Of a stretch of DNA of 64,000 bases, positions 21,226 to 25,812 are shown piece after piece. The notes under the pieces are model-generated. The model worked only from the letters and a program-made list of their open reading frames with translations, had not been told where the DNA came from and ran no database searches. This DNA comes from Thermotoga sp. KOL6 (GTDB lineage Bacteria; Thermotogota; Thermotogae; Thermotogales; Thermotogaceae): contig NZ_LNDE01000002.1 in NCBI RefSeq assembly GCF_002866025.1, forward strand, positions 62,001 through 126,000, read 5' to 3'. Made by a program: the position numbers and the translations under genes. Numbering within the stretch: position 1 is the stretch's first letter; every line of letters starts with the position of its first letter.

Positions 21226-21278
21226 GGTGATTCAAAATTCTGCCGAAGTACAGAATTATTAGGGTATATTAAAAAGAC

Positions 21279-21306
21279 GAGGGGTCCTGCCCCTCATTAT
21301 TTTATT
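21279..21306 (+). terminator. Terminator after ackA
   Basis: GAGGGG (21279-21284), 5-base loop, CCCCTC (21290-21295), then ATTATTTTATTT. A classical factor-independent terminator. Confidence 0.8.
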
Positions 21307-21322
21307 TAAATCAATCTACTAA

Positions 21323-21496
21323 TCAAAAACACAAACCTTACCCATTTTCCTTGGGAGGTACATAACAGGCTGGAGAGTAGCTTGGGGTCCTCTGGCTGCT
21401 GCGGGAATAGTAACCATGCTCCCCGTTGTGATTTTCGCTATCATTGCACAGAGATACTTGATCAGAGGTCTCACTTTCGGAGCGGTGAAGGGATAA
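21323..21496 (+). pseudogene. Relic of a MalG-type sugar ABC permease (C-terminal end only)
   Basis: In-frame, about 57 codons read ...LPIFLGRYITGWRV, a hydrophobic helix (AAAGIVTMLPVVIFAIIAQ), then YLIRGLTFGAVKG and a stop. This is the characteristic C-terminus of the inner-membrane permease of carbohydrate ABC transporters (family end: QRYFVKGLTAGAVKG-like). There is a stop codon at 21320 and no start or ribosome site, so it cannot be a gene. In T. maritima, as I recall, the stretch between ackA and galM holds the arabinose regulator, isomerase and ABC transporter; here only this tail remains. Confidence 0.85.
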
Positions 21497-21517
21497 ATCT
21501 TCCAATGTGTCTAAACA

Positions 21518-21546
21518 TTCCTTCTACAGTGTAATCGAGGTAGAAT
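21518..21546 (+). promoter_or_regulatory. Possible promoter of galM
   Basis: TTCCTT (21518-21523), 17 bases, TAGAAT (21541-21546), in the gap between the permease relic and galM. The -35 box is weak. With the upstream transporter genes gone, galM would need a promoter of its own. Confidence 0.3.
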
Positions 21547-21593
21547 TGAAATGGTGAAAGTCAAGATTAAAAGGATAAAAGGAGGAGAAGTGG

Positions 21594-22664
21594 GTGGAAT
21601 ACTTGATGTGCCACATTGAAAAAGAGCTGTTTGGTTCAACCTCCGAAGGGACTCCTGTGTATCAATATACATTGATAAATAAAAAAGGTTCAATAGCAAA
21701 GATCATAACTTATGGTGCAATATTGAGAGAACTTTGGGTGCCAGATAAGTCTGGCACTCTCTCTGATGTTGTCTTAGGATTCGATACCCTTCAGGAGTAT
21801 GAGAAAAAAAATTCACACTACTTTTTTGGAGCGATTGTAGGAAGGTACGCGAACAGAATCTCTCGAGGTCGTTTTTCAATCGATGGCGTAACGTACCAAC
21901 TTGCTTTGAACGATGGAGATAGACCCAACGCCCTTCACGGTGGTGTGAAGGGTTTCTACACGAGGATATTCAAGGCGATACCCATGAAAACACCTAATGG
22001 ACCTTCTCTTGTTTTGAAGTATCTCAGTCACGATGGTGAGGAGGGTTATCCAGGGAATTTGGATCTTACTATCGTTTATACTCTCACGAACAGCAACGAA
22101 TTGAAAATAGAATACACTGCAACTACCGATAAACCAACGATTGTGAACCTGACTCACCATTCTTACTTTAATCTCTCCGGAGAAGGAACTATCCTCGACC
22201 ATGAGTTATCGGTGAACGCATATCATTACACACCGGTTGATGAAAATTTAATCCCAACTGGTGAAATAGTTCCTGTTGAGAACACACCCTATGACTTGAG
22301 AGAAGCTAAGAACTTGGGAGAAGCTATAGATCCTCTGAAGACTTCTCTGACGAAAGGATTTGATACAAACTTCGTTTTAAACGGAAAGTGCGGGGAGTTG
22401 AAACTCGCAGCTGTTTTGAAAGACAGAAAATCTGGAAGAAAAATGGAGGTTTACACGACGGAACCGGGCCTTCAACTTTATACAGGTAACTTCCTTGATG
22501 TAAAAGGAAAGTGTGGTAGGTATTATAGTTCCTATTCTGGAGTGTGTTTGGAAGCACAACACTTTCCGGATTCTCCAAATCATTCCAATTTTCCGAGCAC
22601 TTTGTTGTATCCAGGAAAGGTGTATCATCAAATTACAGTGTACAAGTTCGATGTGGAAAGGTGA
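21594..22664 (+). CDS. galM: Aldose 1-epimerase (mutarotase)
   Basis: Interconverts alpha and beta anomers of aldoses. 356 residues. Active-site motifs are seen: NALHGG near residue 103, THHSYFNLSG near 184 and the C-terminal CLEAQHFPDSPNH with the catalytic glutamate. Start GTG 21594, seven bases after AAAGGAGGAG; an ATG four codons on is possible. It sits in the remains of the arabinose locus, so arabinose or galactose is the likely natural substrate. Followed by a 67-base gap with nothing recognised except a ribosome site. Confidence 0.92.
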   Translation: MEYLMCHIEKELFGSTSEGTPVYQYTLINKKGSIAKIITYGAILRELWVPDKSGTLSDVVLGFDTLQEYEKKNSHYFFGAIVGRYANRISRGRFSIDGVTYQLALNDGDRPNALHGGVKGFYTRIFKAIPMKTPNGPSLVLKYLSHDGEEGYPGNLDLTIVYTLTNSNELKIEYTATTDKPTIVNLTHHSYFNLSGEGTILDHELSVNAYHYTPVDENLIPTGEIVPVENTPYDLREAKNLGEAIDPLKTSLTKGFDTNFVLNGKCGELKLAAVLKDRKSGRKMEVYTTEPGLQLYTGNFLDVKGKCGRYYSSYSGVCLEAQHFPDSPNHSNFPSTLLYPGKVYHQITVYKFDVER

Positions 22665-22731: not shown

Positions 22732-22947
22732 ATGTACGAAAATGAACGAGAGAAATTGTGCGAAGCTCATATGATATTGGAAAAATACGGTCTTGTAACC
22801 TATACGAGCGGAAATGTGAGTGTGAAAATAGGGGATCACGTTTTGATAAAGCCTTCTGGTGTTCCTTATACTGTTTTGAAGCCAGAAGATTTTGTTGTAA
22901 TAGAACGTCTCTACGTCCAGTATCACACTAAATATGGCCAGAAATGA
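22732..22947 (+). pseudogene. araD: Internally deleted L-ribulose-5-phosphate 4-epimerase (AraD)
   Basis: Residues 1-56 (MYENEREK ... SGNVSVKIGD ... KPSGVPY ... LKPEDFVV) match the N-terminus of class II aldolase/AraD proteins. The frame then jumps straight to ERLYVQYHTKYGQK, which resembles the extreme C-terminus of AraD. The product is 71 residues, whereas the family has about 210-230. The missing middle carries the zinc histidines and the catalytic residues, so the product cannot be an active epimerase. The reading frame is kept, and the ribosome site GGGAGGG and start are intact. This fits a single in-frame deletion of roughly 140-150 codons. Confidence 0.88.
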
Positions 22948-22960
22948 GAGGGGGGAGATC

Positions 22961-24481
22961 ATGTATCTCGTTGGGAGCGATATTGGAACGCAGGGGACGA
23001 AATCTGTTGTTGTGAACGAGAAGGGAGAAGTACTTGCGGAAGCTTTTAGAGAGTATGAGGTGCTCACACCAAAACCAAACTGGGCGGAGGAATGGCCAGA
23101 TGTGTGGGTAAAGGCCGTTTTCGAGACAGTAAAAAAAGCAGTGGAAAAATCTGGTGTCCCAAAAAAAGAAATAGCTGGCATCGCTATAAGTGGTCTTTAT
23201 GGAGGATCTGGAATACCTGTTGACAAAAACATGGAACCTTTGAGACCCTGTTTGATCTGGATGGATAGGAGGGCCGTGAAAGAAACCGAATGGGTAAAAC
23301 AAAACGTTCCAAAGGAGAAACTCTTTGAGATCACGGGAAATTATGTAGATTCTTATTTCGGGTTCACAAAGATCATGTGGATCAGAAACAACGAGCCAGA
23401 GATTTGGAAAAAAATCTACAAATTCATCACACCGAAAGATTATGTGATCTATCAAATGACAGGTGAAATAGTGATTGATTACTCTTCCGCAGGAAATCTG
23501 GGTGGTGTGTTCGATATCAGAAAACTCACTTGGTCTAAAGAGATGTGTGATATCTTGGGGATACCAATCGAGTACTTACCTGAAAGAATAGTAAAATCCT
23601 CCGACGTGGTGGGCAAAGTAACAAAAGAAGCTTCTGAACTTTGCGGACTTCTCGAGGGAACACCTGTCGTTGCTGGTGGAATAGATGCTCCTGTTGCCCA
23701 ACTTTCTGCCGGTGCACTCGAAGAAGGAGAACACGTTGCGATGGTGGGGACCTCCACTTGTTGGGGAACCGTTCACGACGGCTCAAAATTGGCTTTTGGC
23801 CTCGTAAATTATCCGTACGTGGTATACGATACCGAAAGAATTTATACTTTCGGTGGTTCTGCTACCACGGGTGCACTCGCAAGATGGTTCAAAGAACAAT
23901 TTGGAGAGAGTGAGACGATAGTTGGTGAGAGGACGGGTATATCACCTTATCAATTGTTCGACAAGGAGGTGGCGAGCATCCCTCCTGGAAGTGAGGGAAT
24001 AGTTGTTCTTCCGTATTTCATGGGGGAAAGATCTCCAATATGGGATCCTTCTGCAAGGGGTGTATTTTTCGGTGTAACTCTGTATCACAAAAGGGCGCAT
24101 CTTTACAGAGCTTTGATGGAAGGAGGAGCATATGCTCTGAGACACAACATGGAGGAGGGTTTGAAGGCAGGGCTGAAGCTGAACGATGAATGTTGGATAG
24201 TTGGGGGTGTTTCAAAATCTTCAGTTTGGGTTAAAATATTTGCGGATGTTACGGGTTACAAAATGAGGCAAGTTGCTAGTCTTGTAGAAGCTCCATACGG
24301 AGATGCGTTTTTGGCTGGACTTGGAACGGGTGTTATAGATAAACCCGAAAGGATAAAGGAGTGGGTGAAGTACAGAGAACCTGTAGAGCCCGATCTAGAA
24401 AATAAGAGAATTTATGACAAATACTATGAGATATACAGGGAACTCTATGAAAGAACGAAAGAGCTGATGGCTAGATTATGA
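22961..24481 (+). CDS. FGGY-family sugar kinase (L-ribulokinase/xylulokinase type)
   Basis: ATP-dependent carbohydrate kinase, 506 residues from ATG 22961 after GGGGGAG. N-terminal phosphate loop GSDIGTQGTKS, and an AGGIDAPVAQLSAGA segment near residue 240 as in FGGY kinases, with the catalytic aspartate. Between the araD relic and the AraM-like gene it would by context be the L-ribulokinase of an arabinose pathway. That pathway seems broken here, and the substrate (ribulose, xylulose or another ketose) cannot be fixed from sequence. The gene itself looks intact. Confidence 0.88.
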   Translation: MYLVGSDIGTQGTKSVVVNEKGEVLAEAFREYEVLTPKPNWAEEWPDVWVKAVFETVKKAVEKSGVPKKEIAGIAISGLYGGSGIPVDKNMEPLRPCLIWMDRRAVKETEWVKQNVPKEKLFEITGNYVDSYFGFTKIMWIRNNEPEIWKKIYKFITPKDYVIYQMTGEIVIDYSSAGNLGGVFDIRKLTWSKEMCDILGIPIEYLPERIVKSSDVVGKVTKEASELCGLLEGTPVVAGGIDAPVAQLSAGALEEGEHVAMVGTSTCWGTVHDGSKLAFGLVNYPYVVYDTERIYTFGGSATTGALARWFKEQFGESETIVGERTGISPYQLFDKEVASIPPGSEGIVVLPYFMGERSPIWDPSARGVFFGVTLYHKRAHLYRALMEGGAYALRHNMEEGLKAGLKLNDECWIVGGVSKSSVWVKIFADVTGYKMRQVASLVEAPYGDAFLAGLGTGVIDKPERIKEWVKYREPVEPDLENKRIYDKYYEIYRELYERTKELMARL

Positions 24482-25710
24482 GAGTGAGAGATATTTTTGG
24501 GGAAAACTTCAAATGTGTCTGTGGAAAAGAGCACTCTGTTCCAAGTATAGAGATCATAGAATCTTCCATAAAAGAAGTTCCAAATGTGTTTCCTGAAGCA
24601 TTTTTTGTGGCAGATAGAAACACCGCTCTTCTGGTGAATTTACCAGGAGGGCGGTATTTTGTTTTTGAAGAGGGCAGGCCTCTTGCTACGATGGAGAACG
24701 TGAAGAAGATCGCGAAAGTATCAAAGGATTTTCCAGAAATTGTTTCTGTTGGTTCGGGGAGTCTCACGGATATAACAAGGTATACTGCTTTTCTCTTTGG
24801 AAAAAGTTTTTCTTGTATTCCCACCGCTCCTTCTGTCGATGCCTACACTTCTTCCGTGGCACCTATCTTGGTTAATGGTGTGAAAAAAACGTTCAAAGCG
24901 ATTCCTCCTAGAAGGATCTTCATCGATATTGATATTCTGAAAAATGCTCCTGTTGATCTTTTGAGAGCGGGAATAGGAGATATCATTGCCAAAATACCTG
25001 CAAGAATGGATTGGACTCTATCGAACGTTTTGAATGATGAACATATCTGTGATTTCGTATGGAAGGATATAAAGGACCTTCTAAAAGAAATTCTTGCAAA
25101 GTCACGATACATCCTCGAAAGGGATGAAAGTGCTGTAAGGATGCTTATGGATGCGCAACTTGTTTCTGGAATTAATATGGTCATTGTGGGGAATTCTAGA
25201 CCAGCTTCCGGCGCGGAACATATGATTTCCCACTTGATAGAAATGTTTCATGAAGAGAGGGGAGAGATTCCTCCTCTTCATGGATTGAGTGTAATGATAG
25301 GTGTGTTTGTCTCAGCAAAGGCTTTTGAGTTGATAATGGAAGAATTCTTTCTTCCGAAGGAACATTTCTCTCTTGAGGAGAGAAGGAAAGAATTACTTGA
25401 AATGTTCAGTAAAGAAAAAGTGGAGGAATTCCTGAAAACTTATGAAGGGAAGAAAATTCCTACCATGATCAATTTGAAAATAATCAAAGAGTCATTGAAA
25501 GGGCTGTACGTTGAATACTTTCCACAACTACAGAGAGTTCTCAACATCCTAGATGTCCAGTCGATGTTAAAAAAGTATAGTAAAAACTTTCTAATGAAAA
25601 TTGTGAGACTTGCAAACACCATAAGAGCCAGGTTCACTGTTCTCGACGTTCTTGATGGTTTGAATCTTCTGAAACCCTTCTCTGAGTATGTTTTTAATGA
25701 AATAGAATGA
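24478..25710 (+). CDS. AraM-like NAD-dependent dehydrogenase (glycerol-1-phosphate dehydrogenase family)
   Basis: Iron/zinc-dependent dehydrogenase of 410 residues, related to sn-glycerol-1-phosphate dehydrogenase and to B. subtilis AraM. Seen: GSGSLTDITRY (nucleotide binding), SVDAYTSSVAP, GIGDIIAK, and the metal-ligand region EHMISHLIEMFH with PLHGLS. It overlaps the FGGY kinase by 4 bases (ATGA). In bacteria AraM-type enzymes are found inside arabinose operons; their role with sugars is uncertain, as is the true substrate here. The 84 bases after its stop hold only the opposite-strand terminator of pfp. Confidence 0.85.
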   Translation: MRVRDIFGENFKCVCGKEHSVPSIEIIESSIKEVPNVFPEAFFVADRNTALLVNLPGGRYFVFEEGRPLATMENVKKIAKVSKDFPEIVSVGSGSLTDITRYTAFLFGKSFSCIPTAPSVDAYTSSVAPILVNGVKKTFKAIPPRRIFIDIDILKNAPVDLLRAGIGDIIAKIPARMDWTLSNVLNDEHICDFVWKDIKDLLKEILAKSRYILERDESAVRMLMDAQLVSGINMVIVGNSRPASGAEHMISHLIEMFHEERGEIPPLHGLSVMIGVFVSAKAFELIMEEFFLPKEHFSLEERRKELLEMFSKEKVEEFLKTYEGKKIPTMINLKIIKESLKGLYVEYFPQLQRVLNILDVQSMLKKYSKNFLMKIVRLANTIRARFTVLDVLDGLNLLKPFSEYVFNEIE

Positions 25711-25787
25711 AAGCGTGATGTCAAAGACGAATGCTCAAAACATTTCTCAGGCAAAAGTGCTCAAATTATTGGGAATGGAAATGTTTG

Positions 25788-25812
25788 AAAAAAATGAGCC
25801 CCGGAGGGCTCA
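25788..25812 (-). terminator. Terminator of pfp
   Basis: On the minus strand TGAGCCC (25812-25806), 4-base loop, GGGCTCA (25801-25795), followed by a T run (25794-25788). It overlaps the pfp stop codon. The run of A bases on the other side gives little support for use by the plus-strand gene. Confidence 0.8.

Follow-up and report, generated by a model that had tools for sequence, protein, structure and literature searches.

In Thermotoga maritima, the genes of the TM0275-TM0285 region form the arabinose-induced AraR regulon (PMC3750489). The locus described here shares with that regulon the neighbours on both sides, ackA upstream and galM-araD-araB-dehydrogenase downstream, but lacks araR, araA, the transporter, GH127 and GH51 genes, and its araD is gutted. 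In this it resembles deletion-type pseudogenes and decaying catabolic operons, in which gene ends are likewise kept, the middle is lost and neighbouring pathway genes are gone; from other deletion remnants, the araD case is distinguished only by a deletion that is a multiple of three. No account of this operon loss was found in the literature searched.

The window, i.e., the whole stretch of DNA analysed (64,000 nucleotides), corresponds to bases 62001-126000 of contig C2 in a Thermotoga-genus assembly (1.708 Mb in 6 contigs, 99.93% complete). The araD locus was compared with those of six other Thermotoga-genus genomes and one more distant contig (L010), and the complete relatives L091 and L095 were used for the interval from ackA to galM. 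All features are given in window positions and lie on the + strand. Only three genes of the arabinose locus are whole: a galM-type aldose 1-epimerase gene at the TM0282 position (21594-22664; PF01263 at full length, 82% identity to L091), an araB-type FGGY kinase gene at the TM0284 position (22961-24481; PF00370 and PF02782, 94% identity to L091) and an iron-type alcohol/glycerol-1-phosphate dehydrogenase-like gene at the TM0285 position (24478-25710; PF13685, 67% identity to L091). The araB gene carries its own ribosome site, AGGGGGGAG, directly before the start. The frame between galM and araB is, with a probability of about 0.92, a non-functional deletion remnant of araD within a decaying arabinose operon, produced by ordinary gene decay.

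Structure of the araD remnant

The araD frame (22732-22947, 71 codons) begins with ATG at 22732, preceded by a GGGAGGG ribosome site, and ends with TGA at 22945-22947, so that the start, ribosome site and stop described as intact in the preliminary description are all present. It carries neither a nonsense nor a frameshift mutation. Alignment with the full araD genes of Thermotoga relatives confirmed an in-frame deletion with both ends kept: a single uninterrupted block of 423 bp (141 codons, a multiple of three) is missing, residues 1-57 correspond to AraD 1-57, and the last 13-15 residues correspond to AraD 198-212. The N-terminal part (22732-22902), representing residues 1-57 of the ancestral 212, is 83% identical to L091 AraD 1-58 and covers positions 1-53 of the 183 in PF00596, while the C-terminal part with the native stop (22903-22947) is 80% identical to L091 AraD 198-212. 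The best break-point scan against the relatives' full araD placed the junction at about 22899-22909, its exact point being ambiguous within this stretch, close to the region of 22890-22900 first proposed. In the comparison with complete Thermotoga AraD that had been suggested at the outset, each of the six genus relatives has an undeleted gene (639 bp, 212 aa) flanked by galM and araB as here, and so has L010 (211-212 aa). In the window as in the relatives, the araD stop stands directly before the araB ribosome site.

With members of the AraD family (NF005123/PRK06557, TIGR00760; PF00596; E. coli structures 1JDI and 1K0W), the remnant shares residues 1-57, the last 13-14 residues and the position between galM and araB, but residues 58-198, and with them the metal ligands and the greater part of the active site, are missing. 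Its score against NF005123 is 75 bits, far under the family cut-off of 251, in comparison with 341 for the L091 gene, and its coverage of the Aldolase_II profile (53 of 183 positions) falls short of a full-length class II aldolase domain. In E. coli AraD, the metal ligands are Asp76, His95, His97 and His171. When L091 AraD was aligned to 1JDI, all the metal-ligand positions and Asp120 fell inside the deleted segment; this agrees with the loss of zinc and catalytic residues noticed earlier, the roles of these residues being established knowledge. Judged from the sequence, the remnant is very unlikely to encode an active epimerase.

A search of 103 genomes across the phylum turned up no AraD close to 70 residues long, the homologous frames being mostly 211-312 aa in length. 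The shorter exceptions were a frame of 64 aa at the edge of a contig, one of 135 aa containing a stop and one of 163 aa near a contig end, and none of the 103 genomes contained an AraD with its two ends joined as in this remnant. Two features expected of a deletion remnant are seen: relatives have a complete orthologue at the corresponding position, and essential residues have been lost while the genome contains no second, full-length araD. Apart from the remnant, the genome encodes a single class II aldolase, RhaD (rhamnulose-1-phosphate aldolase), whose gene lies beside those of an FGGY kinase and a DeoR-like regulator.

Loss of the neighbouring arabinose genes

In L091 and L095, the interval from ackA to galM contains araR, a convergent araA, a binding protein, two permeases, GH127 and a GH51 arabinofuranosidase. 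The same interval in the window holds only stubs of the araR start, an araR/araA-like terminator, permease 2 and abfA. The ordered relics occupy 320 bp (21235-21557) and make up a compact record of deletion. The araR start relic (21235-21262) retains a few codons (ILPKYRII...) and was recognised by alignment to the ackA-araR junction of L091 and L095. It is followed by a hairpin with T-rich tails (21276-21305), detected by local alignment, a both-strand terminator scan and folding, which resembles the bidirectional araR/araA terminator in both position and sequence; none of 1000 single-base shuffles aligned equally well, and the predicted fold is of -13.9 kcal/mol (z -1.7). The relic of the second arabinoside ABC permease (21323-21496) consists of the last 54-57 codons and the stop, with 89% identity to residues 227-283. 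The abfA (GH51) relic (21509-21557), identified by blastn to the abfA end of five relatives, retains about the last 14 codons, SKHSFYSVIEVELKW followed by TGA, the native stop codon being changed. A consensus promoter scan gave nothing clearly exceeding shuffles.

A search of the whole genome gave no match to AraA, AbfA or GH127 and no close match to AraR, for which the best AraR-like match was only 32% identical. All six genus relatives encode AraA, AbfA and AraR. Of the AraA-AraB-AraD pathway, AraB is present and AraA is missing from the genome. Because the genes have been deleted without replacements in the genome, the arabinose pathway is broken at uptake, hydrolysis, isomerisation and epimerisation. 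On the simplest reading of the relics, at least three deletions besides that of araD may be counted, although two would suffice if the hairpin is coincidental.

Reading frame, age and alternative explanations

One in three random deletions preserves the reading frame. Short direct repeats at the join, anticipated in the preliminary description, were observed in the relatives and only in part: GGTGGA (6 exact bases, Val-Asp codons) stands at both deletion ends and in the same codon phase in L093-L095, but the repeat is weak in L090-L092 (3-4 exact bases). When position pairs are drawn at random from this gene, about 0.5% match as well as this. A slip between repeats of the same phase would give an in-frame join by construction, as far as the relatives, rather than the true ancestor, can serve as the basis. 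Read in the two other frames, the C-terminal piece leads either to a fusion into araB or to termination at 22929-22931, about 30 nt short of the araB start. Whichever frame is used, translation would thus continue to araB or cease no more than about 35 nt from its start, and araB is served by a ribosome site of its own; the in-frame state therefore requires no selection for phase.

The preliminary description had set the clean in-frame deletion against a frameshift and offered selection for translational coupling to the kinase gene as one cause. According to this proposal, translation running up to the araB ribosome site sustains kinase expression, by coupling or by protection from Rho-type polarity. 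The intact start, ribosome site and stop, the position of the araD stop directly before the araB ribosome site, as in relatives, and the high conservation of araB (94-95% protein identity) agree with such selection. However, a frameshifted join would not place an early stop far before araB, so that keeping the phase gives little advantage over the other frames; the ribosome site of araB itself is strong, and with araA lost it is not obvious where the kinase would obtain L-ribulose. The proposal is therefore unsupported, and we regard it as quite improbable. Similarly small is the chance that galM and araB, after the rest of the arabinose pathway had gone, were retained for a different substrate, with the translated araD stub as a leader keeping ribosomes running into araB.

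The other role once suggested for the frame, a functional small protein of 71 residues for instance an AraD N-terminus turned regulator or interaction partner, finds some agreement in an open frame with a start and a ribosome site, and in the few changes at positions invariant among the relatives (3 of 44). This short form is, however, conserved in none of the other genomes examined, the class II aldolase domain has lost its core, the frame lies among non-coding stubs of the same operon, and araD is one of several casualties; such a function is hardly credible. Misassembly of an intact araD might be considered for a draft assembly in 6 contigs, but the join is interior to a contig of 581 kb, no other part of the genome holds the deleted middle of araD, and the flanking repeat of about 6 bp in relatives is too short to mislead an assembly. 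The three neighbouring deletions and the missing araA, abfA and GH127 also indicate real loss, and an assembly error is extremely unlikely.

The substitution patterns bear on the age of the loss. The pN/pS of the araD stub is about 0.09-0.15, similar to that of the relatives, which taken alone could reflect weak residual constraint as well as recent loss. The permease stub differs from L091 at 28 synonymous and 5 nonsynonymous positions, and it has no apparent start. Since the araD stub and this start-less stub agree in their pattern, recent loss is favoured over residual constraint and looks sufficient to account for both. With L010 as the outgroup, a search for excess amino-acid change on the window branch of araD, galM or araB gave no clear excess in the stubs over intact genes, the counts being too small to split neutral from constrained evolution.

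Proposed course of the decay and retained genes

On the preferred reading, operon decay by deletion, the L-arabinose/arabinoside operon was dismantled in this Thermotoga lineage by about four deletions. Those in the ackA-galM interval took away araR, araA, the transporter and the two arabinofuranosidases, and a separate one took 423 bp from within araD. Illegitimate recombination or replication slippage across a short GGTGGA-type repeat is the probable origin of the latter, and a same-phase repeat as in the relatives would make the in-frame join its natural product. The comparisons show the deletions, the loss of the genes and the lack of replacements; we infer the order of these events, and a relaxed need for arabinose as their cause. 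The 71-residue peptide, if made, would be without the metal site and the fold core and is presumably degraded.

The AraB-type kinase (22961-24481) is intact and 94-95% identical to those of the relatives despite the loss of AraA and AraD, and four FGGY kinases are encoded in the genome besides it. The dehydrogenase gene at the TM0285 position evolves much faster than araB in all the relatives (67% versus 94% protein identity), with a pN/pS of about 0.24. The PadR-type regulator and ABC transporter genes located 3' of this gene in L091 are absent from the window (25710-25810); L092 also has a PFK-type gene closely after the TM0285-type gene, and the arrangement is thus not specific to the window. 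That araB, galM and the TM0285-type gene remain open and conserved may likewise be only a sign of recent loss.

With its recognisable stubs, the locus clearly documents the recent decay of an operon, and the 71-aa frame should be annotated neither as AraD nor as a novel small protein. That AraB is left over without AraA or AraD raises a modest question, that of enzyme reuse or delayed loss. From the gene content, this Thermotoga, unlike its relatives, is predicted to be unable to use L-arabinose or arabinosides for growth.
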